Origin: Siphonodentalium dalli
Lineage: Eukaryota; Mollusca; Scaphopoda; Gadilida; Siphonodentaliidae
Assembly: GCA_032622095.1 (NCBI GenBank)
Contig: CP136061.1
Span: forward strand, 135,865,587-135,929,586
Length of the DNA stretch: 64,000 nt
Direction of reading: 5' to 3'
The position numbers were made by a program, and so were the translations under genes. The notes below the pieces were generated by a model. It had not been told where the DNA came from and ran no database searches. It worked only from the letters and a program-made list of their open reading frames with translations. Positions 8,057 through 54,375 of the stretch are shown in pieces. The first letter of the stretch is position 1, and each line of letters opens with the position of its first letter.

Positions 8057-8350
8057 ATTTTTCTGGGTGAGGTGACACCAATTTAATTGGTTGGTTCATA
8101 AACCAACTAATAAAATTGCTGTGGCCTCATAGTGAATCAGAACATATTTCAAAATTGTTTTGAGTTGCACATTCGGTTGCGGGCCTTGAGGATGACTGAA
8201 AAACCGGGTTTTCCCCTCAGTCCCTAGATAGTTTTATGACCATCTTGACTTAGTATCATTGACTGTCTTGCTTCTCATATATGCTAACATATAATATATT
8301 AAACCTAGTTGATTGTTGAAGTAAATGTGAGCAATTTTTGGTTCAAATTG

Positions 8351-11203
8351 ATGCTTGAAAAATTATGTGCAAATTCAGCATGTTCCATTCAAGAAATTCC
8401 ATCTGTTAAGTCTTTATTTGCTGGAACATTGCCTCTTAAAACAAATAAAACTATCTTTCAGATGCTAGTCTGCAGTCTCTGCTCATTCCGGACCACAATT
8501 TTGAGGGCTTATGTTGATCATTTCCAAATTCATCGAAATGTGCCAAACTATTCATTTACCTGCGGATTTTCTGCGTGCAATCACAAACTCAATTCTTATG
8601 AGGGCTTCAAAAAACACATGCAGAGAGATCATTCTGAGAGAACTTCATGTTACAAAAATCTTTCTGCCAATTCTTTTGATTGTGAACTAATATGCACCGT
8701 AACTCTTTGTGAGGAAAGATTTGGAAATCTATCGTTGTTTATTACACACCTCAAGGAGCATATTGGTAAAGGAACAAAAGTTTCGTGCCCATTTTCTGGA
8801 TGCGAGCATTCCACAACTGTTTTATCAACATTTGTGTCACACATTCACCGTAGACATAGAGACTGGGGAATAAACTGTGTTTCCCGTGACTTTGTGAATG
8901 AAGGAAGTAGTTCGAACCATATTCATATTCAAAATTCTCATCAGAATTCTTCAGCATTACCAGTAATACATCAACAGGATATCTTTGAAGTTGAAGATGA
9001 ATTAGATGATACTGCCGCAGATGAAACTATCAGTGATTCAAATTATTCTGAAAACTATTTAGAGTTTCTAGCCCTTTTCTACTTGAAGCTTTCATCAAAA
9101 CTCTTAGTGCCAAGTTCAACAATAAATACTATTGTTGAGGAACTGATGACAGCTAACAAACTTAGCAGAGATTTTCTTAAGATAAATGTGAAGCAGAAAT
9201 TGGATTCACTTGAAATAACTGGAGATAAAATTGACGATATTCTACATGTCATTGAAGATTGTGATTTGTTTGAAAATCTTCACAATTCTTCAACTGGTAT
9301 TTTGCGGAGCAATCACATGCGAAACAAATACTTCATTTCTAATTTCAAATATATCCATCCTCAGTGCATTTTTCTTGGACTTAATGATCTAAATGTTAAG
9401 TGCTTCATGCAATATATCCCTGTCAACCGATCATTAGAAAATGTGTTGAGTGACTCAGTTTTACAAGAAAAGCTATTGATATTCCAAAGATCAAATTGTA
9501 AAACATATCAGGACTTTTGTGATGGACAGTTGTTCCAGGATAAATTAGCTGGTGGAGATAATGACACAGTTTGGATAATCCTCTACCAAGACTCATTTGA
9601 GGTTGTCAACCCATTGGGTTCTGCCAAAATGAAGCACAAAGTTTTAGCAGTATACATGATGATTGGTAATCTGCCTGTTTTCATGAGGTCAAAAACTGAA
9701 GTTATCCAGCTTGTTATCTTGTGTAAAGAAAAAGATTTAAAACATTTTGGACATGAAAAAATATTCAGAACACTTGTTGATGACCTGAAAAAACTTGAGA
9801 AAGACGGCTTGTTTGTGAACAATAAACATTTTAATGTAAGACTGTTATTAATGCTTGGTGACAATTTGGGAAGCCATTTTATTGGTGGTTTTACAGAAAA
9901 CTTTAGTAACGCAGAGCATCTCTGCAGATACTGTTTAATATCAAGAGCGGAATTCGAGCAAGATAACTACCGCCATATTTCATGTGAACATTATCAGATG
10001 CGAAATGCCAACAATTATCAGGAAGCTCTAAATATTATTGAAACGGAAAACAAGAAAATGCACACAGGAATTAAGTTTTGTTCAATATTCAATGAGTTGG
10101 AAAATTTTCATGTTACTGATGGATTGCCTCCATGCTTGGGTCATGACCTCTTTGAAGGAATTGTTCAGAAAGATGTCTACTTGTTTCTTGAATATTTTGT
10201 GAAGGAAAAAAAATGGTTTTCTTTCGATCATGTTAATAGAATGATGAAAAAGTTCAAGTTCAAGGGTTCTGATGCTGCTGATAGGCCTGGTGTAGTTAAT
10301 ACAAATTCTCAAAAGCTTGGAGGCCATGCAGTGCAGAACTGGGTTTTTGTTCGATTCATTCCATTTATTCTCAGTGACAAAATAAAAGACACTGAGGATG
10401 ATATTTGGCAACTATTCATCCTTCTACACAGGATTGTGTCTATGGTTTGTGCTCCATCCATCACAGTTAATCAAGTTTCTTTATTGAAGGATCTAATTGA
10501 TGAATATTTAGAAGAACGTGCTACAAAATTTCCCCTTTCTAAGCTGAGGCCAAAACATCATTACCTCAGCCATTATCCACACTTGATATTGCGTTATGGC
10601 CCACTTTTAAGAGTTTGGACACTCAGATGCGAAAGCAAACATTCATATTTCAAAAAATGTATGAGGAGTACCCAAAATTACATAAATATTCTGGAAACGT
10701 TATCAAAAAAACACCAGCTTATGCAAGCATATTTTCAAGCTGGATCACTCTACCCTGTTGAAAGTGTGTGCAATTCAGCTAGTCCAGTGATCCTCTCAGT
10801 ATTGCATCCTTCTGTAAAGGATGCATATGAGGCCAGTTCAATAAATAAGGATAACGATGTTCTATTCTCCACCAAGGCGACACACAAAGGTGTTCAATAT
10901 GGAGAAAATAAAGTGGTCATAATCAAGATGGAGGACCAATATAATTATAAAGTTGGACTTATTGAGTGCCTCTTCATAGATGACAAGACACTGTATTTTC
11001 TTTTAAAAGAGTTTGATGCTGTCCTTCTACCACAATATAACTACATCGAGATCATTGGTAACATTAACAATAGAAGACCATATATTTGTCTGTCAGTATG
11101 TGAAATTCTGGATCCTTTTCCATTAGAGGTGTATGATCGACTAGGATTATTCTATCTTATTCCCAAACATCATATGCCATGTATGAACGACTACTGCAGA
11201 TAA
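8351..11203 (+). CDS. EnSpm/CACTA-superfamily transposase with N-terminal C2H2 zinc fingers
   Basis: A single uninterrupted frame, open from 8309. The first ATG is at 8351 (951 residues). A second ATG at 8462 follows a splice-acceptor-like CTATCTTTCAG, so the start is uncertain. Counting from 8309, four C2H2 fingers occupy roughly residues 55-75, 85-108, 129-151 and 160-183. An acidic stretch (226-240) follows. The DDE-type catalytic core has YQD at D428 followed by NPLGSAKMKHK, GDN at D518 followed by a CRYC motif, and HDLFEG at E616. KHHYLSHYPHLILRYGPL and the R-x-E-x-KHS-x-FK region follow. These match animal CACTA (EnSpm) transposases, which cut and paste DNA in the nucleus. All three acidic residues are present and there are no internal stops, unlike every other element protein here. 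AATAAA lies 47 bp after the stop. No clear terminal inverted repeats were found, so it may be a domesticated gene or an element with eroded ends. Confidence 0.85.
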   Translation: MLEKLCANSACSIQEIPSVKSLFAGTLPLKTNKTIFQMLVCSLCSFRTTILRAYVDHFQIHRNVPNYSFTCGFSACNHKLNSYEGFKKHMQRDHSERTSCYKNLSANSFDCELICTVTLCEERFGNLSLFITHLKEHIGKGTKVSCPFSGCEHSTTVLSTFVSHIHRRHRDWGINCVSRDFVNEGSSSNHIHIQNSHQNSSALPVIHQQDIFEVEDELDDTAADETISDSNYSENYLEFLALFYLKLSSKLLVPSSTINTIVEELMTANKLSRDFLKINVKQKLDSLEITGDKIDDILHVIEDCDLFENLHNSSTGILRSNHMRNKYFISNFKYIHPQCIFLGLNDLNVKCFMQYIPVNRSLENVLSDSVLQEKLLIFQRSNCKTYQDFCDGQLFQDKLAGGDNDTVWIILYQDSFEVVNPLGSAKMKHKVLAVYMMIGNLPVFMRSKTEVIQLVILCKEKDLKHFGHEKIFRTLVDDLKKLEKDGLFVNNKHFNVRLLLMLGDNLGSHFIGGFTENFSNAEHLCRYCLISRAEFEQDNYRHISCEHYQMRNANNYQEALNIIETENKKMHTGIKFCSIFNELENFHVTDGLPPCLGHDLFEGIVQKDVYLFLEYFVKEKKWFSFDHVNRMMKKFKFKGSDAADRPGVVNTNSQKLGGHAVQNWVFVRFIPFILSDKIKDTEDDIWQLFILLHRIVSMVCAPSITVNQVSLLKDLIDEYLEERATKFPLSKLRPKHHYLSHYPHLILRYGPLLRVWTLRCESKHSYFKKCMRSTQNYINILETLSKKHQLMQAYFQAGSLYPVESVCNSASPVILSVLHPSVKDAYEASSINKDNDVLFSTKATHKGVQYGENKVVIIKMEDQYNYKVGLIECLFIDDKTLYFLLKEFDAVLLPQYNYIEIIGNINNRRPYICLSVCEILDPFPLEVYDRLGLFYLIPKHHMPCMNDYCR

Positions 11204-17475: not shown

Positions 17476-19564
17476 GATTGATTTGTCGATTCATTGATTG
17501 ATTTGTTACATATATTGTCCCACAGTGAATTAACAGCGGCATGATGGATCCCTTCCATTCTCAAGCTACTTGTGCCATGTAATGGAGTTTTTTCTAATGT
17601 GAAGGGGCAACGGTGCCTTACATACATATTCACTAGTATGGGGAGCTTACGGTTGCTAGGAGAGAACTCATTTGCAGAACTAGTTTAATTAGTTCAACAG
17701 CGCTTGTTATTCTGTTATAATATACCCGAGAACATTCATTCTGTTTGACTTTAATTGTGAAAATTATGACAAGTGTCACGCAAAATGAGTGTTAAAATCA
17801 CGGATGAATTTCCAACATCATGGTGCAAATAGAAATACCAGTGCATCACGACTACAAAATTGGTTTGAATATAGAGAATTTAACACTGAAAGTATTTGCG
17901 GATATCACCTGTTTTCATTGCAGCAAGCGACAGGCTCATCTGGCATATCTCCTAAAATTATTTGGTTGATTAGTAGGCTTGAGACCCCACCGCAGCTCAA
18001 TTCACACCATGACCCTGATAGATGATGTAATGTGTGGATGCTAGGAGTATAAGTATAGTCAATCACTATTAGTGTACATATAAGTGTACTGTGTGGTTAT
18101 AAATTGTTCCAGGTGTATAATTATACAGGCAGCTATACATGTAAATGTCTTCTCCCGAAGGCAATTTTACGATCACTTATATTGAGTACAGATGTATAAA
18201 TGAATATTGGTATGTACACCGTATATGATTACATTAATCCATTGCTGCATTGCATGCATATTATTGTATCTGCATCTATAATATATTACAACAATATCCA
18301 GCGGGGGATGGGATATTCTGTGGTTGTATTGTATTTGTAATGGTTACAAATTTGGAAGTATTGATATTGTATTTATAATCAGGAATTCTAGGAGCCAAAT
18401 TATTGTACTTTTAATAAATACTTTGGAAATTGAAGAGTATTTAAAAATATTTTTTTATTACATATTGCCAAGGTATTTTAGATTATTTTGTAGAAAGCTG
18501 AGAAATAAACATAATTCTTACTGTAGCATCTATTTGCATGGGACTAATGAATAAACAATTAACACATTCACAAATTGTTCCATCAATCGAAACGTGTTTT
18601 GTATTGATATCTTTATCTGAAGCTGTTGGTAGACAACAGTAGATCTAACTTGAGTTTACCAGTACTGCTGTATATTTTGACTTCTTCGCATCCATTCTTG
18701 ATGCCGAGCTTGGAATATTGGAAGCTTTCCTCTTATTGTTAACATAATTGCTGATATTAGTCATGTTGATTTTGGCATATATATATTTCAATCGGGTCTG
18801 AATTCTGGAATTATTACGACTTGAAATGTCAATACCAGCAATGTAATTGATTTTGTTAATGATGTCGTGTTTATAGGATTTTGTTCCAGTCGAATTATTT
18901 CTATAGTGTTGTAAAATTTTTGCAAATGAAACACGACGGAATTGGAGACATTTTCACATAAAATCACAAATTATTATCGAGATATACTAACAACGCGTCG
19001 ACATGAATATAGAAATCGATTGGGAATTCCCAGTGTTCGGCACTAAAAATAGATCGTTCGACTCCGGCAACCCTCGGGATATTCAAATACTTAGTCGTCT
19101 GTCGCCAATATGGTGATTGCGTATGGACGAGTCAGATATCGGTAAGCTGATTGGGCGAGGGTGACGATTGACCGCTAACAGGATTTGGAATAGCGTGTAA
19201 CTTATACATGAATATGCATGGAATTTGTAATATACATTTATGTCGGCATTGGAATCAGGAAAACATTTTAATTACGGTTTTAGTATTTTTAAATACTTCA
19301 TTTCTTATTATTTTATGTAACAGCTTTTTCTGAAACACATTAAAAAGTTTAAGCGTCATCCTTATTTCCTTCAGATATTTTGGCTGATTGGATATTCTCA
19401 TAATTTTAATTACATTCTTCAGAAATGATTCTTGATATAAAATTAAAGTTATTGAACATTTGTATTTTGGTAAGAATGACACAGCGTATGGTTTGTATCT
19501 TCGAGTCACACCAATTACATTGATAGACCAATTATATTGGTGTAGTTTTATTCTAACATCCGAA
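17476..19564. other. no gene recognised
   Basis: AT-rich sequence up to the start of the family B LINE ORF1. The last few hundred bases (about 19240-19564) may be the 5' untranslated part of that LINE, but nothing in the sequence proves it. Confidence 0.35.
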
Positions 19565-19919
19565 ATGACAAGCAAAATACGGAATAGTTTCGAAATTAAA
19601 ACATCAGAGTTGGAGGATAAAATCGTAAAGTTAGAAAAAGAATGCAAGGAACTGAAGCGACATAATGGTCGACTTGCTAATCAGGTTTCTTCGTTGAAAA
19701 AGTCTATAATATGACATGAATGCCCGGCCGCTGATATTGAAGAAACTGCTACTCCAAATTCGAAACCAGGAAATGTGAAATCTAAGGAATGCAAAGAAAT
19801 CACAGGAACTGATTCTAGATGAAAGTGTGGTCGTCTCAAATAAATTCGACGCCTTATCATTTCTAAATGAAAGCTTGCAGTCGATTCCAGGAGAGTGTGA
19901 CATTGATTATTCTGATGCG
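19565..19919 (+). pseudogene. LINE family B ORF1, N-terminal part
   Basis: ATG at 19565 opens a 50-codon frame rich in Lys and Glu with heptad leucines (ELEDKIVKLEKECKELKRHN), a coiled coil typical of LINE ORF1 proteins, which bind RNA and oligomerise. A TGA at 19712-19714 breaks it. After frame changes the protein resumes at about 19818 (ELILDESVVVSNKFDALSF) and reads to DIDYSDA, where the hAT element begins. When that insertion is skipped, the frame continues directly into AKHENGTSESD at about 21251. Confidence 0.7.
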
Positions 19920-21245
19920 TAGCTCCCCCGGTCCGGCCACCCAGCCATGGCCGGACCAATAATTTTCCAATAAGTGAGTTTCAACATTATCAAAATTATA
20001 AAATATTTATTGAATTATGAACATGTCAACTACTTCTTCCCGATTTCGTCCAACAATACGCGTCTCAATTATTGCCTGTAAATTATTTAATGGTTTACGG
20101 CAGATATCATAAACGTAACGTCAAACTTGACATATTTTATGGTATTAATCAATAATTAATTGTAATTAGCGTTGTTTCCCTTTATAAGGGGAGACAAATA
20201 ATAAATAATGTTTGCTTCGTGTGTAATTTTTGAAAACATGTCTATTTAAAAAAAATTCAAAAGAAAACGCTCTGAAAGCGACCACGAAGATATTAAAGAA
20301 TCTGTTGATTCTTCCACAATTCATACCAGCGCTGCCAGTGCAGAAGATGAACATATTAACATTGCACCGAGTCTGATGCCCTTGCAAATCATGAGTCAAA
20401 TGAATTATTATAAGTCTCTGAACCAACCAACGAACTTTCCATTCCCAATGAGACAATTCGGAAAAAAGAAAGTAGTTAAGCGAAAATTTCAACCAGAGTG
20501 CATGGTTTGGTTTGTGGTCGTTTCTAAGCTACGTTGAAGCAAATGACACGGTGGTGTGTGCTACGTGCATTCAAGCTAAGGACGAGAACAAACTTAATAA
20601 TACCAAAACTGATTCTGCTTTCATGACCCGCGGTTACTATAACTGGAAAGATGCATGCATTCGTTCAAAACTCACGAACAATCGAATAGTCACAAGGAAG
20701 CAGAGGAGCTTCTTTGAAACCGATATACCTTGTTTGTTGTCATTTGAGTTTAAATATAAGTAGTAAACATTTGTTTCTTGCATTTCGTGGGGGTATGGAA
20801 ACGTATCAGATATGCGCCAATATCCAATGGAAATGGAGATGTAAACAACAAACGTCCATTTCTTAAATGGGTGTAAAATGTAATTTATAATAATTTATGT
20901 CAAATAATTTATATGACATGGTTTAAAATACCTAGAGTAGAAATACAGATAAATCCAATGTGCCCTGTTTTGGCAGGATAATCAACAATTTAAAAAACAA
21001 TTTCAGAATAAATAACACAAATATAGTTGTTTTAGTATCAGTATCTTCTTGACATCGAATAGCTCCAAAACATTGGAAAACACATCGCTTTAGGTACAGT
21101 ATTTTTTAAAATCTCCATCGACGAGAGGGGGACTCCCCCTCTCGAGCTCTCCCCGCCGCGCTGCTTCGCAGCTCGGACGATGCGTTCCGCATCGTATGTT
21201 CACTAAGGGCCTGACCAATATTTTAAGGCTTCCGCCGGCCCTGAT
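19920..21245 (+). mobile_element. hAT element with TTF-type zinc finger, inserted in LINE ORF1
   Basis: Bounded on the right by CTTCCGCCGGCCCTG (reversed: CAGGGCCGGCGGAAG, a hAT-like end). On the left are TAGCTCCCCCGGTCCGGCC and GGCCGGACCAATA, an imperfect counterpart. The flanks GATTATTCTGATGCG (left) and GATTATTGCG (right) overlap in sequence, consistent with a decayed target duplication. The LINE ORF1 frame resumes after it. It contains the TTF zinc-finger fragment at 20240-20763 and nothing recognisable of the catalytic domain, so it is a deleted copy. The exact ends are uncertain by several bases. Confidence 0.6.
20240..20763 (+). pseudogene. hAT transposase N-terminal fragment, TTF-type zinc finger
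   Basis: The plus strand encodes NFPFPMRQFGKKKVVKRKFQ at about 20431-20490. After a frameshift near 20500 comes WSFLSYVEANDTVVCATC, then DSAFMTRGYYNWKDACIR. The order FPFP-x-R-x-FGK, W-x-x-Y-x(E)A-D-x-V-C-x-x-C and G-x-x-NWKDA is the TTF zinc finger seen at the N-terminus of many hAT transposases and ZMYM1-like proteins, a DNA-binding domain. The dimerisation and DDE regions are absent. The 83-residue open frame at 20512-20763 is this finger alone, not a separate gene. Confidence 0.75.
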
Positions 21246-22119
21246 TATTGCGAAGCATGAAAATGGTACATCGGAATCAGACAATTACAGCCACAAGAAC
21301 CTGACTAAAACGTCTTCACTCCAAACACCAATTCATCTCATCCTTGGTGATTCTGTTTTAAGACAGCTCGATCCAAATATGATGGCGTTAATAGGTGAGC
21401 GTGCGGAGATAGTGTTCCAACCAGGTCAGAGGATTGCCGGATTAATGAGATGGCTGGACGATGACAATACTGTAAAGTTCAATAATGTACATAAAGTTAC
21501 TGTACATATTGGTATCAACAGTTGTCGCTATGGTATTCAGACGTCGAGAGAGGAAATTTCGGATATGATAGGGAAACTTCGAGAAAAATTACCTGCAGCA
21601 AAGATAAGTTATTCTTCAATTCTCCCTACGCTGCATTCGGACCGCATCGATTAATTGGTTCTTGAAACAAATAACCTTATTCGTGAGGTGTGTCAAAATA
21701 ATGGGTGTAATTTTATTGACAACTCGCCTGGATTTGTGAATTTGAACACATCTGAGATCGACAGAGACTTGTATTCGGGAGTCAGGGTCTTAGATAAGAA
21801 CATTAAATATACGAAGAATACTCCACAACCAGGACAATTTCAAAGTAAATTCCAACAAGATAATAGATGGTACAACCGACAGAATTTCTCACAGAATCAT
21901 TACAGAGGAGACGCTCACAGCGGGAGAGTTGTACAGGACCAGAAATTTGGAGCATCTTACGCCGGTCCGTTTAAGCCGCGACAGCCAAGCGTTTTAAATC
22001 CCAATGTGACACAGAATAAGAGTGCACGTACTGACTCTTCTCTGAGAGATGACTTGAGGGTATTCAGCATTGAACTTTTGAAATTTTCAGTAGCAATCAG
22101 TAGAACAGTCAATGCTTAG
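21246..22119 (+). pseudogene. LINE family B ORF1, SGNH-hydrolase domain and tail
   Basis: After AKHENGTSESD the frame reaches LILGDSVLRQLDP (GDS block of SGNH/GDSL hydrolases), then VTVHIGINSCRYG (block III, Gly-x-Asn). It continues with KLPAAKISYSSILPTLHSDR, a TAA at 21652-21654, NCNFIDNSPGF-like text and finally DRDLYSGVRVLDKNIKYT. In active family members the last block is Asp-x-x-His; here the His position reads Arg. The C-terminal 90 residues are Gln/Asn-rich and basic. Such domains occur in ORF1 of CR1-type LINEs, where a lipid or membrane ester is the suspected substrate. The internal stop and the changed histidine make this a relic. ORF2 begins about 230 bp downstream. Confidence 0.75.
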
Positions 22120-22345
22120 AAATTGGGATACAATTTAGTTCATATTCATGTGTATATATGTTATTTAATGTGTGTCATATATGTTAAAGCTGAAATCACA
22201 CGAACAATTTAAATATCCCATGATCGTTAACAGGTCTCTGGTAAATTCACGAAAATGAAAATTGTATATTAGTTATAGATTTGAGTATCGAAAGACTCCG
22301 CTCTATCTCCGATGGCCGCGGAATACTTATATTTATATAATTCTG

Positions 22346-22807
22346 ATGTTTAAAGTTCTCAATTCAGACACACACAGCGTGTGCTATTCATCGTGGAATG
22401 CACAGGGTCTTGTTAATAAAGTAAAAGATCTTGAATTCACTGCCCTTTTAAATCTTTTTGACTTTATTACAAAAATTGAAGCGTGGAACAACGATGCCGC
22501 ATTGATACAATTGCCTAACTATAGATGTATAGAACTATGTCGCGATACAAACAAGAATGCAAGAGGCGGCGTAGCCTTCCATTGTCGCTTGAAATATGAA
22601 AAGTTCATAAAACGTACTGAATACATTAACGATGTGGCTTTATCAATAGAATTCGATGGTATGATGTTCAATATTGACGAGAATATTTTATTTATATCCG
22701 TTTACATTCCACCAGAAAATTCTAGTTATTGGAAAACAAATGATAAGAAAGAACTTGTTTTCACTAACATTGAAGAGTATATCGCTAGTTTGGTGCCTAA
22801 TCAGTTA
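22346..22807 (+). pseudogene. LINE family B ORF2, endonuclease N-terminal half
   Basis: ATG at 22346. The frame carries SSWNAQGLVNKVKDLEF (Asn at 22397-22399, a catalytic residue of APE-type endonucleases). It continues with a Glu-Ala-Trp motif, ARGGVAFHCRLKYEKFIKRT and ILFISVYIPPENSSYW, all standard for the nicking endonuclease of LINEs. It ends at VPNQL, where the family A LINE is inserted. The next residues of the domain (FIMGCDFNARTG) lie at 24667 after the insertion. The protein would nick target DNA to prime reverse transcription. Confidence 0.8.
22799..22807 (+). repeat. target-site duplication, left copy
   Basis: AATCAGTTA here matches AATCAGTTA at 24658-24666 on the other side of the family A LINE. 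Removing one copy and the element joins the endonuclease frame exactly. Confidence 0.85.
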
Positions 22808-24657
22808 CATCTCATCAACTCATAGATCTATATAATCACCTGAGCCAATCTCTCGACAATGGCTTATATACGTGTTCTACTTTCTGTGATATATCGAAGG
22901 CATTCGAGAGAGTTTGGCACAGAGGATTGGTACATAAACTGTCTAGTTATGGCGTGCGAGGGAAACCATTGAAATGGATAGAAAATTATCTAAGAAACCG
23001 CCAGCAGCGCGTATTAGTAAACGACAGCTTTTCTGATTATGAGATCATTCCAGCGGGCGTCCCTCAAGGCTAAATTTTAGGACCTTTTCTATTTTTAGTT
23101 TACATAAATGACCTACCTGACAACATCAGTTCCGTGACCAGAATGTACGCCGACGATACCTGTCTTACAAATAGCCACCACGATCTGAATGAGTTAGCAC
23201 GGATTATGAATATGGACCTTGAAACCATAGCAACATGGTCAAAAAATTGGCTGGTCAGCTTTAATCCTTCAAAAACAATGGGCATGTCATATTCATTGAT
23301 TGGCACCTCTGGTGATATCCCTAATTTAACTTTTAATAGTGACACAATATCATTTGTTGAGACACACAAACACCTTGGTCTTGAGCTCCAATCAAATATG
23401 TCGTGGAACAATCATATAAATGCAACAATAAAGAGAGTAGCATCCCGCTTAGCACAACTTAGAAAATTTAAATTCCAACTCGACAGGAAGACATTAGAAA
23501 ATATATATAAAACATATATACTGCCTCTATAGGATTACTCGGATGTAGTCTGGGCATGCGCGCCAAAATATCAATTGGATAAACTTGACCGATTACACAT
23601 TGATGCAGCCAGAATTGTCAGCGGCCTCACGCGTTCAGTATCAGATACAGACATTATGACAGAAGTCGGCTGGCCCTCGCTAAGAAAAAGGCGCGAACTT
23701 CATAAATTACAAACTATGTATAACATTGTAAATCAGAGGGCCCCTACTTACCTCACTAAAATAATACCACCCAGGATAGCCGATATATCCGAGTATGAAT
23801 TCAGAAACCCCGAAAAATTTTACACATACTTCAGCATTACCGAGCACTACAAAAAGTCATTTTTTCCCTCAACAATAAAAGCGTGGAACGACATGCCTTC
23901 CGCAATAACAGAAGCTCCGACGATTTTCGATTTTAAAGATTATCTTATAATAATTGATCCCACCGCTAGACCTCCAATATATTTCTATACAGGTCGTAGG
24001 AAATATAATGTATTGCACGCCAGACTAAGAAACTATTGTAGTGATCTTCAGTCTGACAAATTTCAGAATTATATTGCAGGAAGCCCACGTTGTACGTGTG
24101 GCAACCAGTGTGAAGATGCCTATCACTACTTCTTTATGTGTCCCCACTACCAGTCAGAACGAACTGAGATGTTTCATATGCTACACAGAGAAGGAATTAA
24201 ATTAACGCACATGAACAATCTACTTGCTGGCCTCCCGAATGCTCATAACAAACAAAATGTGAAATTGTTCAAAATAGTGCAGCATTTTATCGCGGAGACT
24301 AAACGTTTCTAGTTAAATTTCAAGATAAGAAATTAGTTTATCAATTATCACATGTTTTCCTTTTCCTTTCGCCTCACCATAGAATGCAACTCGGCGTTGG
24401 CACCCCCCCCCCCCCCCCACCAATCACTCTCACTGACTCACTCTCATCCTTCCTCAATGAATTGTTACAATCTGCCATCATCACCTTTCTCATTCACCAC
24501 GTGCAGCTGTAAATAAGTTACTTATTGTGCCATTTTGTTAAACAAATTGTTTGTATCAATGTATACCGGAGAGGGGCTCATTAAGTTTTGTAACTTGTGC
24601 CCCAATCCATTTTGTATTATACTACAAATAAAATATGTTTAAAAAAAAATCAAAAAA
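22808..24657 (+). mobile_element. family A LINE, 5'-truncated insertion
   Basis: An 1850-bp piece that begins abruptly inside the RT domain (CATCTCATCAACTCATAG, matching the reverse strand near 59165 of the longer copy). It ends in CAAATAAAATATGTTT and an A-rich tail. It is flanked by the 9-bp duplication AATCAGTTA and sits in the endonuclease of the family B LINE. Its 3' region includes a poly-C run at about 24402-24419, mirrored by a poly-G run at about 57545-57562 in the minus-strand copy. The protein is nearly identical to that copy: two differences over the 132 residues from MTRMYADD. Confidence 0.9.
22820..24312 (+). pseudogene. family A LINE ORF2 fragment: RT, thumb and C-terminal zinc motif
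   Basis: Motif A (STFCDISKAFERVWHRG) and motif B (IIPAGVPQG) read in one frame, then TAA at 23071-23073, then ILGPF and MTRMYADDTC with the catalytic YADD at about 23143-23154. A second stop at 23530 (TAG) interrupts ILPL-DYSDVVWACAP. The frame then runs from 23575 through LDRLHIDAARIVSGLTRSVS to the C-terminal zinc-binding motif CTCGNQCEDAYHYFFMC and a stop at 24312. The product would be a reverse transcriptase for target-primed insertion. With no endonuclease and two stops, this copy is inactive. Confidence 0.85.
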
Positions 24658-24666
24658 AATCAGTTA
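24658..24666 (+). repeat. target-site duplication, right copy
   Basis: AATCAGTTA, the partner of 22799-22807, directly after the A-rich tail of the family A LINE. Confidence 0.85.
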
Positions 24667-27600
24667 TTTATTATGGGATGTGATTTCAATGCACGCACAG
24701 GTGAACGACCGGACTATGTTGCGCAGGACGATGATTCTCATGTCACACTTTCTGAAAACTATATTTTAGATACAGTTAGAGATAGATTAAGCTTACCTAA
24801 ACATTGTAACGGTTTTTGGAAAGCTCCTATCGATGTGCCAATCGACCGGAATGCGAATATTGAATGGAAGGAAATTTGGTGATTTGCTTGGAAATTTCAC
24901 GAGTTACCATTACAATGGAACTAGCGTCGTTGATTACATACTTATTAAAGAGCGCTATTTGTCTGATATAAGCTATTTTTGTGTCAAATCACCAACAGAA
25001 TATTCAGATAATTGCCAGCTGGCAATACACATAAAATTCAGTAAAAATTGTCCAACTAAAAAGCGACTAAAATATAAGTATAACGTGTGTTCAACACAGA
25101 TGAAACGGTACAAAGAAAGTAGCGATTCAAGAGCAAAGAAAGCTGTTTTTCAACCGCACGTGCTAAGTAAACTTATGAAGTTCCAAATGTCATCGTACGG
25201 GCTAGATCACACAGATACGGAAATGGCGATTCGAGATTTAAATGAAATACTCCAGTTAATAAATAATGCATCAACAAAAGTATTTTCCCTTAAAGGCACG
25301 TGCGGCCTTAATTGTCGAAAATATTCATATTTGTTCCAAACACCGTAAACAGAAAAACAGTAAAACGCATACAGTTCCGTGCATATATACCATGACCATC
25401 GCGTAAACAGCATGTTATCATAAAGACCTACTATATTTTACCTAAGCAAGAGCCTGATTGTGTTACAGAAGACAGCACAATGCTACTGGCTAATCACACA
25501 CAAATGGCATAAACGCTCTTTATTAGTTCCATATCAGGTATTCACCAACAAAGAACGCTCTTTATGATTACCATCATAATATAAACAAACACAAGAAAAG
25601 TAACGTTTTACGCCATTGTTTACATAACAATGGTCAAACATATGACCATAACATACTGTTTATGCGATATTTCTTATTTGTATACGGACAAAGTCTATCT
25701 ACATTTTGATGTTCTTTCTGTTTGTGGCGGTTTTTGACGGGTGGAGATATTTTCACAGGATACCCAGCGCCAAGGCCAACCGTGTCTTTAATAAACATAG
25801 GTGCAGACGGAAACGACTATGGTTTGATGATGAATGCAAAAAGCTTAAAAAAGAAATGGTAAATGTCATTGAGGAATTGAAAAGAAAACCACATGATAGA
25901 TCTCTGACATTTAAATTTTTCACAGCAAAAAAAGCATATAAACGGGAGACAAAAAGAAAATCTCGCATTTTTCACCAAAATATTGTTGAAGAGCTATCAA
26001 ATCTCGAAACTAGTGACCCCTCGAAATATTGGAGAATCGTGAATAATATGCGACCGAAGAAGGAAAACTCTAATAATTTAGACCCGGGTGAAACAATCGA
26101 TGTTTTCGATAAACTGCTATGTCCACAAATCGAATCAATTGAAAAGCAATTAAAATCCATGAAACAAAGTACCATTGTGACAAATTTCAACAATGATGAT
26201 ATAACTAAAGGCGAAATATTAGATAACCTGTATCAACTTAAAAATAACAAAGCTAGTGGACAGTTAACATTTCAAATGAAATATACAAATCAGTCATTCC
26301 ATTTATGTTGGACGAGGTCACACAATTGTTCAACACAGTTTTGCACTCAGGTCATTACCCTCTATGCTGGAGCGAGTCAATAATCAAAACCCTATATAAT
26401 AAGGGCAATAGACATGACCCTAACAATTATATACCTATTGCTTTAAGTAGTAATTTTGGTAAGTTATTCAACAAAGTTATAAACACACGAATAAACTCTT
26501 ATCTGGAAGCAAATGACTTAATTAGTGACAAGCAATTCGAATTTAGGAAAAATCGGAGTACAATTGATAGCGCTTTTATATTGCGAACTATCGTTAATAG
26601 GTATAAAGAAGAAAAAACCTATATATAATATGCAGCTTTTGTTGATTTTCATAAAGCATTTGATTCAGTTAATAGATCGTTGTTATTCGAAAAATTGCAA
26701 CGTGTAGGAATTAATGGTCATATATATGACGCGTTATCTTCTCTTTACAAATCAAGCTACTATTCTGTTAAACCAACGGCGGGAATTGGTCCCCCTATAT
26801 TGTCTATAATTACAATAGGTGTCCGTCAAGGCTATTCTCTATCCCCTACGTTGTTCAAGATTTTCATTAATGATATAGCTGATAGTTTTGACGAAACCTG
26901 TGAACCCGTACACGTTCATGATCATAACCTCAATCATTTACATTTACTTTACTGAATCACCGACAGGTTTACAATCGGGAATTAAGAAGTTAGAGCAATA
27001 CGCGCTTGATAATGGACTATCTGTTAATGTAAGCAAAACAACATGTATGATCTTTCGCTCAAGGAAAACAAAACATGGTCATGTATTTAATATTGATGAT
27101 ATGCCAATAGAAGTAGTGGATGAATATAAATATTTAGGACTAATTTTCACATCTAATGGAAAAATGAAAAAATACAGGATAATCTGAGCGCAAAAGCATC
27201 AAAAGCCATGTTCTTTTTAAAAAATTTAACAAAAACAACACCGGTGCTACCTATCGCCATTAAATTCAAATTATTTGATAACTAATTAAGCCTATTTTAT
27301 TGTATGGATGTTAGATATGGTCCACTGACCTTAATTTGCCGTTCAAAGATACCATACCATGTGAACAAACACATCTAAAGTTTTGTTAGCGGGCTCTATG
27401 TTTGAATAGAAAGGCCTCAAATCACGCTTCTAGAGCAGAGTTAGGCCGTTTCCCTATCGCGAATGATGCCATTTTACAACTCGTCAGGTACATGCTAAAA
27501 CTATCAAAAGTAGATGACCATAATATCTTATCCGCATGCTACAAAGAATCTCTGAATTGTAAATTACCTTTAACATGGCTCACCCAATTGTCGCGTTATA

Positions 27601-28019
27601 ACATTGTAATCAATAACGCAGGCCAACTATCAGGGCAGCGTGAACAGATGCTGACTAAGACATTGAAATCAGAACACATGGAAGTGTTTCGCAATGATAT
27701 ATTCAATGACGATAGACCGACAGGGAAAAATAAACTACGAACCTATAGGATATTTAAAGATGAATACAAATTTGAGCCATATGTCATTCACACACGATCA
27801 CAAATTGCTCGCGAAATATTTTCTAGATTGCGCGTGAGCAACCACATATTGGCAATAGAAAAAGGGAGGCATAGACAACCAGTAATACCATTAGAAAATC
27901 GGCTGTGTTCCATGTGTGACAAACAATGTGTCGAATCTGAAATGCATTTTATCATTGAATGTAACGCATACGATGATTTAAGATCTAATTTATTCACGAT
28001 AGTGAATTCAATAATTTGA
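24667..28019 (+). pseudogene. LINE family B ORF2, rest of endonuclease, RT and C-terminal domain
   Basis: Continues the endonuclease with FIMGCDFNARTGERPDY, a frameshift near 24880, GTSVVDYILIKERYLSD, and SDNCQLAIHI where active enzymes have Ser-Asp-His. A TTAA MITE splits the next part; FSL joins NKHRCRRKRLWFDDECKK across it. RT motifs follow: NNYIPIALSSNFGKL, FEFRKNRSTIDSAF, motif A FVDFHKAFDSVN (about 26638-26675) and motif B GVRQGYSLSP (26819-26848). The YADD box is destroyed around 26900-26950, before ESPTGLQSGIKKLEQYALDN. The C-terminal part has ELGRFPIANDAI and a zinc-binding motif RLCSMCDKQCVESEMHFIIE followed by C. Several stops and frameshifts show it is long dead. Confidence 0.85.
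25294..25787. mobile_element. TTAA-flanked MITE, copy 1
   Basis: Flanked by TTAA at 25290-25293 and 25788-25791. The terminal inverted repeats are AGGCACGTGCGGCCTTAA (left) and, reversed, AGACACGGTTGGCCTTGG (right). Length 494 bp, no coding capacity. It interrupts the family B LINE between FSL and NKHR, and the frame is restored when the element and one TTAA are skipped. TTAA duplication is the hallmark of piggyBac-type transposition; naming the mobilising family is inference. A shorter copy in the opposite orientation lies at 53833-54175. Confidence 0.85.
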
Positions 28020-28276
28020 ATGACGCAGATAAATTTGCACTGATTATGAGAAATGATAATATTAAATTAATTAACAAGGTTTGCAACATAGTCCGGCTGT
28101 TCTTCCTTCGGCGGAATAATAAAACTTGAAGAAATTGTTGAGGGAATGTTGATAAGAACTGTGTTTGTTATAATATTTTTGTTATGTATTGCTTATTTAT
28201 GTATATGATATTCATCAGTAACTTGCAACTGCCCATTGAGGTGTTTTGCAATAAATTCTTGTATCTTGTATCGTGT

Positions 28277-30112
28277 ACCATAGACCGCTGGTGATTATAT
28301 ATATGAGCTCGTTGCCTATATAAAAAAAAGTGACTTGTGACTGTAAAGTATGATTCTGGTGTGGTGTATTTATCTATCGTCTACACTAATACATTTCTAG
28401 ATCAAGAGAGTTGAGAAACAGTTCTGGAATTTAAATCATTCAGTTAACAAGTATCGATTTGAGTCCAAAGTCCAAATTCACCGTGTGAAACTTTCTACTC
28501 ACGTTTCTGGCCATATGTGAAACTACCAAAATACGTCGATCGGATCTGACATTACTACTGGTACATCTTGGTGCCCGGCAATTGAGAGATTTTAAACCAC
28601 CTGGCGGTTGGAAGCCACAAATTATATGCTTGCGTTTGTGACAAAGTTTTGTCATGTCGGTCAGGCTATGTGCAACAGAAGGCTCATACAAGTCATAGAA
28701 TTGAGAAAATCGGAACTTTAGCATGGGAAAGTAACGATCGTTCCTAGTTATCCTATATCTGTTATTGTAAAGATAAAGATCGTTTGTTTTGCTTCTCTGC
28801 GAAAAATCTGGAAAAGTTTTAAGACTTTGGCAAATGTTTTCAGAGTGATAAACCCTGTAGGATCTGTGCACTGTCGACCTATTTATCCCTTTCAAATTGC
28901 GTAGACCTAAATTACAGGTAAAAATTAGCAGTTTAACATATGGTCCATCCATGAGATTAACGCAATCCATGATATTTACGCAGGATCACACACAGAGGAT
29001 TGTAAATCGATTCGTCCATTTTGGAAAGTTTGTCAATTGCTAATACTGAGGTAGGTGGTTATATGTGCATTGGAATGCATGATATCGGGGTAAAATCAAT
29101 AGTTTGCGCTCTTTCGTTGTCAATAAAACTGACACTGTGGTATAGCTTATAGCGAATAAAATCAAATCAGAAGCGATTGAATATTACAACCTACAGTCCC
29201 AATGGAAATTCCCCATTATCGTAAACTGTTGCTGGTGTAATTTGTCAAAACATCAATATGAATGGCATGATATTGTGGGCGTTGTTACGACTTATCATGC
29301 TTTATTAATGCCTATTAGAGCTTGGGAATCAACAATGGACATTGTTGGCTCTCTTTAAGTGATGGGTATTGGAAAACACTCCTGGTAGTCGGCTCGCGAG
29401 AGCGGATCGATTGAGTTCGAAGCCCATTGGGGAGCCCACTCTGGGGATAAAGCCGCTGGGATATTATAACGGGCGTGGATATAGAGAAAGCCTTGTGCGA
29501 TAATCTGTCTCCTAGACGGAGTAATTAGCGATATCGTTATGGATAACTCCAAGTCAGATGAGAACAGCTCCTCATCGGAAGTTATACCTCAGACAAACTA
29601 ATTTGGTCATCAGTCAATCCCAAATAATCAATAGCTAATAGTCAGAAGAGATATGTTTCACGACTGGTCCGCCAACGACTGACGCCGGACCAAGATGAGC
29701 GATGGAGTCATCACATGATATGGCGACTTACACATTTCCAGGATCATATGCATGGATCAATTGCAGCAATTTACTTATAAAACCAAATATGTCCAGATAA
29801 ATGTCTTTCAATATTTATATGTTTAGTCGTAAAAATCGACTATATCTAAAATTTAACTACAATTCTATCACATTTTGATTCTGGCGTTTGACTTCACACG
29901 TCTAACCAATATAATATCAACTAAGCGAGTCAATATTGATTCCGACCTGTCTATATACATACTAACGAAGATGATTTGATTCAAAAGACATCGCTTTTAT
30001 CTCGCAGATGTTGTTTATATCTTGTGAGCATATATATTTAGTGAGCATCCATCCGACTTTTCTCCAACACTAAATATTTAATAATGTTACTGAAAAGGTA
30101 GTAAGACAGAGC
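28277..30112. other. no clear gene; ORF and SINE-like trace noted
   Basis: Between the LINE 3' end and the 42-bp minisatellite. Holds a 176-codon minus-strand open frame at 28440-28970 (listed separately). Near 29418 is a B-box-like GTTCGAAGCC following CTGGTAGTCGGCTCGCG, which could be a tRNA-derived SINE head. Otherwise nothing recognised. Confidence 0.3.
28440..28970 (-). CDS. unidentified open reading frame, 176 codons
   Basis: Starts with a true ATG (MDCVNLMDGPYVKLLIFTCN) and runs without stops to FGLKSILVN. I recognise no domain. It is rich in Arg, Ser and Asn, with seven Cys and no signal peptide or clear membrane segment. In AT-rich DNA, roughly this length is expected by chance about once in several windows of this size, so it is only mildly unusual. 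It lies just beyond the 3' end of the family B LINE and has no repeat partner in the window. It may be an exon, a piece of an unknown element, or chance. Confidence 0.2.
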   Translation of the reverse strand: MDCVNLMDGPYVKLLIFTCNLGLRNLKGINRSTVHRSYRVYHSENICQSLKTFPDFSQRSKTNDLYLYNNRYRITRNDRYFPMLKFRFSQFYDLYEPSVAHSLTDMTKLCHKRKHIICGFQPPGGLKSLNCRAPRCTSSNVRSDRRILVVSHMARNVSRKFHTVNLDFGLKSILVN

Positions 30113-30893
30113 GTTCACGGTTATACTGTTCCTGGTAAGGTAGAAATAAAAAGTGTTCACGGTTATAATGTTCCTGATAAGGTAGAAATAAAACGTGTTC
30201 ACGGTTATAATGTTCCTGATAAGGTAGAAATAAAAAGTTTTCACGGTTATAATGTTCCTGATAAGGTAGAAATAAAAAGTGTTCACGGTTATAATGTTTC
30301 CGATAAGGTAGAAATAACGGGTGTTCACGGTTATAGTGTTCCTGATAAGGTAGAAATAACGAGTGTTCACTGTTATAATGTTCCTGATAAGGTATAAATA
30401 AAAAGTGTTCACGGTTATAATGTTCCTGATAAGGTAGAAATGAAAAATGTTCACGGTTATACTGTTCCTGATAAGGTAGAAATAAAAAGTGTTCACGGTT
30501 ATAATGTTCCTGATAAGGTAGAAATAAAAAGTGTTCACGGTTATAATGTTCCTGATAAGGTAGAAATAAAAAGTGTTCACGGTTATAATGTTCCTGATAA
30601 TGTAGAAATAAAAAGTGTTCACGGTTATAATGTTCCTGATAAGGTAGAAATAAAAAGTGTTCACGGTTATAATGTTCCTGATAAGGTAGAAATAAAAAGT
30701 GTTCACGGTTATAATGTTCCTGATAAGGTAGAAATAAAAAGTGTTCACGGTTATAATGTTCCTGATAAGGTAGAAATAAAAATGTTCACGGTTATAATGT
30801 TCCTGATAAGGTAGAAATAAAAAGTGTTCACGGTTCCTGATAAGGTAGAAATAAAAAGTGTTCACGGTTATAATATTCCTGATAAGTAGAAAT
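30113..30893 (+). repeat. 42-bp minisatellite, about 18 units
   Basis: The unit begins GTTCACGGTTATAATGTTCC and continues TGATAAGGTAGAAATAAAAA then GT. Starts at 30113, 30155 and 30197 fix the period at 42 bp. Most units match at nearly every base; a few have small deletions near 30781 and 30830. Because 42 is divisible by three and the unit lacks stops in two frames, long repetitive open frames exist on both strands (SVHGYNVPDKVEIK on plus, NTFYFYLIRNIITV on minus). I see no promoter or other reason to call either a gene. Confidence 0.95.
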
Positions 30894-32910
30894 AACGAGC
30901 ATTTATCTTACTTCTGTGCACAGCATGAGCAAAATAATATATTTAGAAAACATAGGCACTGAAGAGCTGGACAACCCAAATATGCTAGGCATATCTTGTA
31001 GAGACGCTGATTGTTACGCAAATAAAACCCAGGCATGCTCGGGTCTATATTATGCTGAACTGGACGTGATTTTAATGTTGTCGCTTGGTTCAATAATTTG
31101 ATATAATCATGGTTGGCATAAATTTGACAAGTTAGTTAGGCGGAAATTTCAGTCGCAAATGTCTCTTATTGAGACTGTTTTGTGGTGATGTTGTTGCCGC
31201 GATAGTGTCATGTGTTTATTAAACGAGACCTTGCACAACCTGGGTATCAAAATACCAGTTTCAGCGAACCTGGGTAACAAAGTACCTGTTTTTGCAATCC
31301 CGCGTAACTTACTACCCAGAACCACCGCATAACGACCAATTCAGCCTACGTTATATAAGAGCGACCTTCCGATACGTCATTGTCATGAAGGGAAACATAA
31401 CAGGTTGCCTGAGATGTTTCCATTTTGTACGTATTCCAACAAATCACATGTTAATTAAACGGGCGTACACACACGCAATCGGCTCTAATACATTTCACAT
31501 CATTCAATTTACCGCTCGAGAGCAAATATTCGTTACGGTGTTTGTACTTCCCACGGTTCGGAGTATCGATTCCTCCTTTTTAATCTCTCCATCAATTCCC
31601 GATGGCATACAGTTGCCACTTTCGTGACGGAGGGCGGAGATACCATGGTACCATAACATGCCTTAATAGGTGGATTGGTATTGGCAACAAAAATTGACAT
31701 GGTATCAACGACTGACACAGATAGATCGTTGTATCAGATTATAGATTCAATAATATTAACTCGACGCATTGTTCTTCGTTTTGTAGTGAAGGCGAGTGAC
31801 TGGTAATAACTTGATATTCGATCATACATGCATTCGATCGTCAACGTCGTGTGGTTAGGGAAAGCTATTCTTTATTATTTTCTAACTTGCTTCGCCCGAA
31901 CGAACATAACAGATTTACTGAATAACAACTACTAATGATAATTGATATGTATTAATTAATGAAAAACGACTCAGGTTGGACTGTGCTGGCCTATACCATG
32001 GTGTACATGTATGTACATGGAAAGTACAACGAACAAAAAATATTACAGTAGTTATCGTATTGGTCACAAAACAGAACTATACAAAACATGCGTTTAGTTA
32101 AGACAGGAAAAAGACGCGCCTGGTCAGTTTTATCCTCTCCACAAATCCATCACTCATAACGTTGTCAACGTTGTATAACGGTTTGTACAATGAAACTATA
32201 ATTTAATTCGCATATCAAACTTGGTCTCAAATAGGCCAACATTCCAATGGAGTACTTTTGCGGGGGGGCGGTGCGATTATGCGTACTTATACGCAGGATC
32301 GACTCTCATACTCAGCTCATCCATGTTTCCGTTTCTTCGAGCAGCGGGAGATAATAGGCTAATCTAACATAACCTAACATGACAGTAACCGGATATAAGG
32401 TATTTATCCCTTGGTCGAAGAGAAAACATCACTTATTGTAAATCAATATCGGTCTCTGACATTCGGTTCTCTTGACGAAACAATCAGAGATAGATATCAA
32501 ACTACATGGCGCCAACTGGTCAATAAATAGATAATACGACACAAGTGTGTGGACTTGTTATCTTAACGTTATTGCCCGAGCCTGTTGTGACGCGATGGCA
32601 AACGAGAACCGAAGGTTCGGGCTTTACATAGATGCATGACAAATGAGTGCAACAATAACGTTAACGTGTTTACTGAATGTTATTGTTCCACACTGTTAGA
32701 AATATGCCAGCATGCAGTCAGCGGTGTCATACCGTGCAACATCGATGCCAACTTTTTATTGTTAACATACTTGCTGTAGTAAGTAACTGGCAGACTGTAC
32801 CAGTAACAGTCAGACCGTGGTATTTTTTAAGGTCCAACACCCTTCAATTAACATAAAAACCGTATAACTAACAATAATCTGACCAATGTTTTTTTGTTCA
32901 CGGGTCAACA
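30894..32910. other. no gene recognised
   Basis: Contains a short near-duplication of ACCTGGGTA(T/A)CAAA(A/G)TACC near 31238-31285 and a G-run at about 32260-32268. No coding signal or element boundary identified. Confidence 0.35.
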
Positions 32911-39958: not shown

Positions 39959-42900
39959 GGCGATATTCAGGTCAATTCGGTATTGTTTTGCTGGTATAGA
40001 GAGGCGATATTCAGGTCAATACAGTATTGTTTTGCTGGTATAGCGAGGCGATATTCAGGTCAATCAATTCAGTATTGTTTTTGCTGGTATTGAGAGGCGA
40101 TATTCAGGTCAATTCAGTATAGTTTTGCCGGTATAGAGAGGCGATATTCAGGTCAACTCAGTATTGTTTTGCTGGTATTGAGAGGCGATATTCAGGTCAA
40201 TTGAGTATAGTTTTGCCGGTATAGAGAGGCGATATTCAGGTCAATACAGTATTGTTTTGCTGGTATAGGGAGGCGATATTCAGGTCTATTCAGTATTGTT
40301 TTGCTGGTATAGCGAGGCGATATTCAGGTCAATTCAGTATTGTTTTGCTGGTATAGGGAGGCGATATTCAGGTCAATACAGTATTGTTTTGCTGGTGTGG
40401 AGAGGCGATATCCATGCCATTACATTATTGTTTTGCTGGTATAGAGGCGATATTCAGGTCAATTCAGTATGTTTTGCTGGTATAGAGAGGCGATATTCAG
40501 GTCAACTCAGTATTGTTTTGCTGGTATAGAGAGGCGGGTCAGGTCAATTCAGTATTGTTTTGCTTGTATAGAAAGGCGATATTCAGGTCAATTCAGTATT
40601 GTGTTACTGGTATAGAAAGGCGATATTCAGGTAAATTCAGTATTGTTTTGCTGGTATAGAAAGGCGATATTCAGGTCAATACAGTATTGTGTTGCTGGTA
40701 TAGAGAGGCGATATTCACGTCAATACAGTATTGTTTTGCTGGTATAGAGAGGCGATATTCAGGTCAATTCAGTATTGTTTTGCTGGTATAGAGATGCGAT
40801 AGTCAGGTCAATTCTGTATTGTTTTGATGGTACAGAGAGGCGATATTCAGGTCAATACAGTATTGTTTTTCTGGTATAGAGAGGCGGGTCAGGTCAATTC
40901 AGTATTGTTTTGCTGGTATAGAGAGGCGATATTCAGGTCAATTCAGTATTGTTTTGCTGGTATAGAGCCGATATTCAGGTCAATACAGTATTGTTTTGCT
41001 GGTATAGCGAGGCGATATTCAGGTCAATACAGTATTTTTTTACTGGTATAGAGAGGCGATATTCAGGTCAATTCGGTATTGTTTTGCTGGTATAGAGAGG
41101 CGATATTCAGGTCAATTCAGTATTGTTTTGCTGGTATAGAGCCGATATTCAGGTCAATACAGTATTGTTTTGCTGGTATAGCGAGGCGATATTCAGGTCA
41201 ATACAGTATTTTTTTACTGGTATAGAGAGGCGATATTCAGGTCAATTCAGTATGTTTTGCTGGTATAGAGAGGCGATATTCAGGTCAACTCAGTATTGTT
41301 TTGCTGGTATAGAGAGGCGGGTCAGGTCAATTCAGTATTGTTTTGCTTGTATAGAAAGGCGATATTCAGGTCAATTCAGTATTGTTTTGCTGGTATAGAA
41401 AGGCGATATTCAGGTCAATACAGTATTGTGTTGCTGGTATAGAGAGGCGATATTCAGGTCAATACAGTATTGTTTTTCTGGTATAGAGAGGCGGGTCAGG
41501 TCAATTCAGTATTGTTTTGCTGGTATAGAGCCGATATTCAGGTCAATACAGTATTGTTTTGCTGGTATAGCGAGGCGATATTCAGGTTAATTCAGTATTG
41601 TTTTGCTGGTATAGAGAGGCGATATTCAGGTCAATTCAGTATTGTTTTGCTGGTATAGAGAGGATATATTCAGGTCAATTCAGTATTGTTTTGCTGGTAT
41701 AGAGGCGATATTCAGGTCAATACAGTATTGTTTTGCTGGTATAGAGAGGATATATTCAGGTCAATACAGTATTGTTTTGCTGGTATAGAGAGGCGATATT
41801 CAGGTCAATTCAGTATTGTTTTTCTGGTATAGAGAGGCGGGTCAGGTCAATTCAGTATTGTTTTGCTGGTATAGAGCCGATATTCAGGTCAATACAGTAT
41901 TGTTTTGCTGGTGTAGAGAGGCGATATTCAGGTCAATTCAGTATTGTTTTGCTGGTATAGAGAGGCGGGTCAGGTCAATTCAGTATTGTTCTGCTGGTAT
42001 ATAGAGGCGATATTCAGGTCAATACAGTATTGTTTTGCTGGTATAGCGAGGCGATATTCGGACCATTACAGTATTGTTTTGCTGGTATAGAGAGGCGATA
42101 TTCAGGTCAATAGAGTATTGTTTTGCTGGTATAGAGAGGCGGGTCAGGTCAATTCAGTATTGTTCTGCTGGTATATAGAGGCGATATTCAGGTCAATACA
42201 GTATTGTTTTGCTGGTATAGCGAGGCGATATTCAGACCATTACAGTATTGTTTTGCTGGTATAGAGAGGATATATTCAGGTCAATACAGTATTGTTTTGC
42301 TGGTATAGCGAGGCGATATTCAGGTCAATTCAGTATTGTTTTGCTGGTATAGTGATGCGATATTCAGACCATTACAGTATTGTTTTGCTGGTGTAGAGAG
42401 GCGATATTCAGGTCAATTCAGTATTGTTTTGCTTGTATAGAGAGGCGATACTCAGGTCAATTCAGTATTGTTTTGCTGGTGTATAGAGGCGATATTCGGG
42501 TCAATTCAGTATTGTTTTGCTGGTATAGAGAGGCGATACTCAGGTCAATTCAGTATTGTTTTGCTTGTATAGAGAGGCGATACTCAGGTCAATTCAGTAT
42601 TGTTTTGCTGGTGTATAGAGGCGATATTCGGGTCAATTCAGTATTGTTTTGCTGGTATAGAGAGGCGGGTCAGGTCAATTCAGTATTGTTTTGCTGGTAT
42701 AGAGGCGATATTCAGGTCAATACAGTATTGTTTTGCTGGTATAGCGAGGCGATATTCGGACCATTACAGTATTGTTTTGCTGGTATAGAGAGGCGATATT
42801 CAGGTCAATAGAGTATTGTATTGCTGGTATAGAGAGGATATATTCAGGTCAATACAGTATTGTTTTGCTGGTATAGAGGCGATATTCAGGCCATGACAGT

Positions 42901-53716: not shown

Positions 53717-54375
53717 GAAACACTCCGGTAGAATGATCACAATAGAAATGGAGAAAATCTCGCTAAAAGTAGTTATTTTCTTCTAAAAATCTATTCAAAT
53801 TGACAACACACGACGTCAATCTTATATATTAAAGGTACGGTTGGCCTTGGCGGTGGGTATCCTGTGAAAATATCTCGTGTTTGTTTATATTATGATGGTA
53901 AACATAAAGAGCGTTCTTTGTTGGTGAATTCCTGATATGGAACTAATAAAGAGCGTTTATGCCATTTGTGTGTGATTAGCCAGTAGCATTGTGCCGTCAT
54001 CTGTAACCCAATCAGGCTCTTGCTTAGGTAAAATATAGTAGGTATTTATGATAACATGCTGTTTACGCGATGGTCGTGGTATATATGAACGAAACTGTAT
54101 GCGTTTTAATGTTTTTCTGTTTACGGTGTTTGGAACAAATATGAATATTTTCGACAATTAAGGCCTCACGTGTCTTTAATTAAATGCAAAGAATTTCGAT
54201 GGCGACATCATTTGTGTTAGTGTATCGCCGACAGCTGCGTCCCGAATGGAGATGTAAATATTTACAATTAAGCGTAGTTCAGACGACGTTTTCTACGGAG
54301 TGGTATGGTCGATCACTTTGAAAATTTCGGCGATGTTAATAGGATGCTAGAACAAGCCCATAATATGTATTTAAT
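53717..54375 (+). repeat. 360-bp dispersed repeat, copy 3, interrupted by a MITE
   Basis: GAAACACTCCGGTAGAATGA through CACACGACGTCAA, then the TTAA MITE 53833-54175. After it come ATTAAATGCAAAG, TATCGCCGACAGCTGCGTCC, GTAAATATTTACA and GGCGATGTTAATAGGATGCT. The join restores the TTAATTAAATG phrase seen in copy 2, which shows the empty site. Confidence 0.8.
53833..54175. mobile_element. TTAA-flanked MITE, copy 2
   Basis: Flanked by TTAA at 53829-53832 and 54176-54179. Ends AGGTACGGTTGGCCTTGG and, reversed, AGACACGTGAGGCCTTAATT. It is the inverse of 25294-25787 and shorter (343 bp against 494), lacking part of the interior. Two AAAGAGCGTT motifs of opposite-end origin are present. No coding capacity. 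Confidence 0.85.

Follow-up and report, generated by a model that had tools for sequence, protein, structure and literature searches.

How does one LINE come to lie in four pieces separated by three other mobile elements, and how much of the history of such a site can be read from the site itself? The question is raised by a locus at positions 19556-28277 of a 64,000-nucleotide stretch of the Siphonodentalium dalli genome, hereafter the window (G000:C1:135865587-135929586, from a 2.23-Gb assembly with 9 large contigs). A preliminary description had proposed that a family B LINE is broken here by a hAT element, a family A LINE (LINE A) and a TTAA MITE, in a four-layer nested stack that would reveal the order of insertion and could be undone base by base. 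Comparison with other copies in the same genome makes it almost certain that the locus is a family B LINE into which a hAT, a LINE A and a TTAA MITE inserted at three separate points. These three guests are disjoint and none interrupts another, so that the depth of nesting is two, not four.

Other family B copies are continuous at the three joins

With the family B pieces as queries, we searched the same genome and retrieved eight copies with their flanks (L025-L032), to which the window was then aligned. Each of the eight shows the same four blocks of similarity to it (19556-19923, 21249-22807, 24658-25293 and 25788-28277), with slight differences at the ends, additional breaks of their own in L029-L031, and a match to L032 that stops at 27714. 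On the B copies, these matches overlap by 8, 9 and 4 bases at the hAT, LINE A and MITE joins, respectively, as expected if each element inserted with duplication of its target site. All pieces lie on the forward strand. The first carries the coiled-coil part of ORF1, lacks the upstream part of this frame and ends in the left hAT duplication (TGCGTAGC, 19916-19923). The second runs from the right hAT duplication (TGCGAAGC, 21249-21256) through the SGNH/GDSL esterase domain of ORF1, the linker and the start of the ORF2 endonuclease to the left LINE A duplication (AATCAGTTA, 22799-22807). The third comprises the right LINE A duplication (24658-24666), the remaining endonuclease and a TTAA at 25290-25293, and the fourth the reverse transcriptase (RT), a C-terminal Cys-rich region and the 3′ UTR.

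Continuous, i.e. empty, sites were observed at all three joins: at 15 loci where the window has the hAT, at 14 where it has LINE A and at 15 where it has the MITE. Among the family B loci scanned (14-15 per join), not one has the insert of the window at the corresponding place. Note that these counts include overlapping entries (L004 is L026, L005 and L011 are L025, L016 is L027) as well as one segmental-duplicate pair (L029/L030), and that they correspond to at least seven independent copies per join, from the eight copies fetched in full and several partial ones. The empty hAT site reads GATTATTCTGATGCGAAGCATG, in which DIDYSDA leads into KHENG; the empty LINE A site reads CCTAATCAGTTAGTTATTATGG (PNQL-VIMG) and the empty MITE site TTTTCCCTTAATAAACATAGG (FSL-NKHRC). 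The continuity of the peptide across the hAT join and the exact resumption of the frame at the two other joins, both read originally from the window, are thus present in uninterrupted B copies. The alignment to other copies that had been suggested as a check returned no copy that is discontinuous at these joins or that contains the same inserts, and the central claim of one B LINE broken by three elements stands.

Recombination among repeats, gene conversion between them or their misassembly might also produce a mosaic of this kind, without transposition into one B copy. The locus is indeed rich in repeats, and segmental duplicates of B exist elsewhere, as the L029/L030 pair attests. We nevertheless consider such an origin very improbable, since every join carries the duplication typical of the inserted class (8, 9 and 4 bp) and the B pieces remain collinear and differ little in private divergence from one side to another (1.1-2.4%).

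In the L029/L030 pair, the two loci (G000:C4:186046800-186054100 and G000:C4:187667200-187674600) are 98.6% identical over 7.3 kb including their flanks. They lie ~1.6 Mb from each other in opposite orientation, have the same MITE insertion and represent a segmental (inverted) duplication. Two further B copies in opposite orientation, ~0.15 Mb apart (G000:C9:67449889-67462234, forward, and G000:C9:67284269-67295121, reverse), each contain several kb of extra DNA and are possibly another inverted duplication. As for the window, candidates for a duplicate of the whole locus were rejected: matches of the left flank were with older repeats (64-83%) and ended at ~19170-19173, and those of the right flank (68-89%) were confined to a ~180-bp stretch. 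A search of the genome by both flanks found no second copy of the entire locus.

The host is a 5′-truncated LINE of CR1/L2-like architecture

Domain content was read from the B copy L032, whose ORF1 matches Lipase_GDSL_2 (Pfam, 1.2e-8), identifying an SGNH/GDSL esterase, and whose ORF2 matches Exo_endo_phos (5.9e-10) and RVT_1 (1.5e-40). Family B thus resembles CR1/L2 LINEs in having a coiled-coil-like part followed by an SGNH/GDSL esterase in ORF1, an APE-like endonuclease and an RT in ORF2, and a 3′ tail of repeated units; this likeness is one of domain architecture. Esterase-type ORF1s (type IV ORF1, as in ZfL2-1 of zebrafish) are known from CR1/L2 elements and have also been reported in RTEX and Penelope elements (PMC3905857, PMC4120745).

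In the window, family B extends from 19556 to ~28272-28277, within its (TTGTATC)n tail. Other B copies have in common a further ~0.9 kb that precedes the first B base of the window; this missing 5′ part does not occur elsewhere in the window, where its longest matches are at most 28 bases. An ORF1 start at the ATG at 19565 was considered and rejected: other copies have ATAACAAG or ATGACAAG here, in frame, and extend ~0.9 kb upstream, and the ATG, which is absent from several B copies, is an internal codon of ORF1. The window copy has further lost 20 bp of ORF1 at ~19803 and 17 bp at ~26945, the latter deletion taking away the RT motif FADD, and it carries frameshifts elsewhere.

In LINEs, a missing 5′ part is usually caused by truncation at insertion. 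The window copy was thus probably dead on arrival and never active, a reading that makes the earlier statement that the guest families were active once the LINE was dead or dying nearly trivial. One might instead suppose that B was a full, active element killed by one of the three insertions, which do split ORF1 and ORF2. This is unlikely, as the copy is short of ~0.9 kb on its 5′ side, where ORF1 starts, which leaves it neither a complete ORF1 nor the 5′ region; the force of this argument is limited by the lack of a clean duplication around B, which would also accommodate a later deletion of the 5′ part instead of a truncated insertion. Indeed, no convincing target-site duplication flanking B was found, the best coincidences being ATAGACC and the tail-like TTGTATCTT, both away from the junctions. 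On the preferred reading, a CR1/L2-like B copy would have arrived already 5′-truncated and then decayed neutrally, while three unrelated mobile elements entered it at separate points, each by its ordinary mechanism.

Three guests of three classes

The first guest, at 19924-21248 on the forward strand, is a decayed hAT DNA transposon. Its full-length relatives L049 and L050 are ~3.8 kb long, start with CAGGGTCGGCGGAG or CAGGGCCGGCGGAG and end with CCGCCGGCCCTG, with terminal inverted repeats of the CAGGG... type (CAGGGCCGGCGG ... CCGCCGGCCCTG), of which only the 3′ end survives in the window copy: this end (CCGGCCCTG) falls at 21243 and is followed by five extra nucleotides, ATTAT, and ~14 bp of the 5′ terminus (CAGGGCCGGCGGAG in other copies) are missing. 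An internal deletion of ~2.57 kb at 20709/20710, seen in no other scored copy, has removed the part in which reading frames of L049 match DUF4371 (Pfam, 5e-15) and Dimer_Tnp_hAT (2e-7). The assignment agrees with the known features of hAT transposons, i.e. an 8-bp target duplication and, in the relatives, CAGGGCCGG termini, DUF4371 and the hAT dimerisation domain, while the internal deletion and the loss of the 5′ terminus set the window copy apart from a typical hAT. The 8-bp duplication around L050 (GCTAATAG) is exact. That of the window has one mismatch (TGCGTAGC on the left, TGCGAAGC on the right), consistent with a hAT transposase having inserted the copy into B with an 8-bp duplication, the 5′ terminus being lost afterwards.

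Because the left end is damaged and five nucleotides have been added on the right, the hAT duplication can be read in more than one way. The right flank past the terminal CCCTG is ATTATTGCGAAGC, similar to the B target ATTATTCTGATGCGAAGC minus five bases, and the element may therefore have come in with a different duplication from TGCGAAGC, such as ATTATTCT, both ends having been rearranged later. We regard this as the less likely reading, though a serious one: it calls for additional events on the left, where host bases GATGCGTAGC lie beyond the duplication and the terminus is lost, whereas the TGCGAAGC reading already yields a duplication of the canonical 8 bp, one of them mismatched. On this favoured reading too, a terminus has been lost and bases added, so that, strictly speaking, the hAT join cannot be undone base by base.

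The second guest, at 22808-24657 on the forward strand, is a 1850-bp LINE A with an A-rich 3′ end, truncated at its 5′ end within the RT region; seven other copies extend upstream of its first base, which identifies it as truncated. Its closest relative, at C6:74192013, is 99.5% identical across the whole insert. The 9-bp duplication described at this join is exact (AATCAGTTA on both sides), and with the 5′ truncation and the A-rich 3′ end it is as expected of target-primed insertion; a LINE A transcript would have been inserted by target-primed reverse transcription, with truncation of its 5′ end and a 9-bp duplication. The window also contains a second LINE A copy, on the minus strand (57301-59157), which is longer, 97% identical over the shared part, and has open reading frames reaching ~60566 with endonuclease and RT domains.

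The third guest, on the forward strand at 25290-25791 with its flanking tetranucleotides, is a MITE of 494 bp between two copies of TTAA, with imperfect terminal inverted repeats (AGGCACGTGCGGCCT / AGACACGGTTGGCCT), which would have inserted into B at a TTAA. A first look at the genome gave over 2000 candidate copies of the family, and all seven copies sampled at unrelated loci (L018-L024) have TTAA on both flanks. Like piggyBac-like TTAA MITEs it is short, non-coding and of high copy number, and the TTAA duplication and inverted ends suggest that it is piggyBac-like. A second copy in the window (53829-54179, minus strand) is internally deleted and about 94-96% identical.

Members of this MITE family have entered family B more than once. 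Two insertions are independent of that in the window: one in the duplicated L029/L030 pair, equivalent in position to 22271/22274 of the window, and one in the B copy L065, at ~27260 and in the opposite orientation. The three insertion sites in B are thus the window, the C4:186/187 Mb pair and C4:96.7 Mb, and the MITE copies at the other sites are 6-9% diverged from that of the window. Given thousands of MITE copies, chance is the default explanation for these repeated insertions; that the family repeatedly found B LINEs over a long time, which could point to a slight bias towards AT-rich LINE sequence, is unlikely.

Several other features were noted in the window. A 964-aa open frame (8309-11203, forward strand) has no Pfam match above cut-off and only a weak FOXP-CC match; by eye, it shows C2H2-finger-like Cys/His motifs near its N-terminus and is possibly a transposon gene. 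Long open frames at 30038-30907 (minus strand) and 42356-42811 (forward strand) are in-frame minisatellites with units like NIITVNTFYFYLIR and ERRYSGQFSIVLLVYRGDI, and the region from 40 to 44 kb has a strong GC skew.

Private substitutions give a partial order

The geometry of the locus places the host B before its guests and gives nothing further; of the insertion order formerly drawn from structure, this first step is supported and an order among the guests is not. For each layer we then counted the substitutions private to the window copy, using small comparison sets of 5-13 copies, which for LINE A and the MITE are the most similar copies. The values are 102/5014 or 2.03% for B (95% CI 1.66-2.47), 32/1195 or 2.68% for the hAT (1.83-3.78), 5/1850 or 0.27% for LINE A (0.09-0.63) and 1/494 or 0.20% for the MITE (0.01-1.13). 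By this measure B is far older than either LINE A or the MITE (Fisher test, p = 3e-9 and p = 0.0013, respectively); the same test separates neither B from the hAT (p = 0.18) nor LINE A from the MITE (p = 1).

Note that a guest is never older in place than its host, so that the hAT value reflects either an early arrival or mutations carried in. The hAT and the MITE being cut-and-paste elements, their private mutations may partly predate their arrival, and the values for these two are upper bounds on residence time. The mismatched duplication and the eroded end of the hAT suggest that it arrived early; an early arrival is probable, with a date that is only bounded. Overall, at least two of the inserts are recent and landed long after B.

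Nested insertions in family B and elsewhere

Nested insertions have been catalogued by the thousands, and automated methods for ordering them date from 2008-2010 (TinT, PMC3014933; REANNOTATE, PMC2672092). As in the cases handled by such methods, younger elements interrupt an older one here and the host is defragmented to infer the order; there is no difference in kind, only in the particular families and genome. Nesting is also common in this genome: among the matches listed, and with parts paired by coordinates, ~8 of the 14 B copies in which both ORF1 and ORF2 parts were found, i.e. about half, carry extra DNA inside these parts or between them. The additions include ~7 kb at C9:67.45 Mb, ~6 kb at C9:67.29 Mb and ~10 kb at C4:96.7 Mb, and the copies at C2:79.49 Mb and C4:96.7 Mb have two interruptions each. 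A ~370-bp insertion of a different sequence is present in L031 (G000:C6:76125200-76132600) at the B-equivalent position 27729/27731.

Mechanistically, the locus offers nothing new and belongs to an ordinary class of genomic scar. It is a clean worked example of an insertion history that can be read from a single site, in which empty sites of the same genome verify the host and its guests and private mutations date a partial order. For the genome itself, the 0.2-0.3% of private change in the guests indicates that LINE A and the MITE family have been mobile recently, while the B copy that received them is old.
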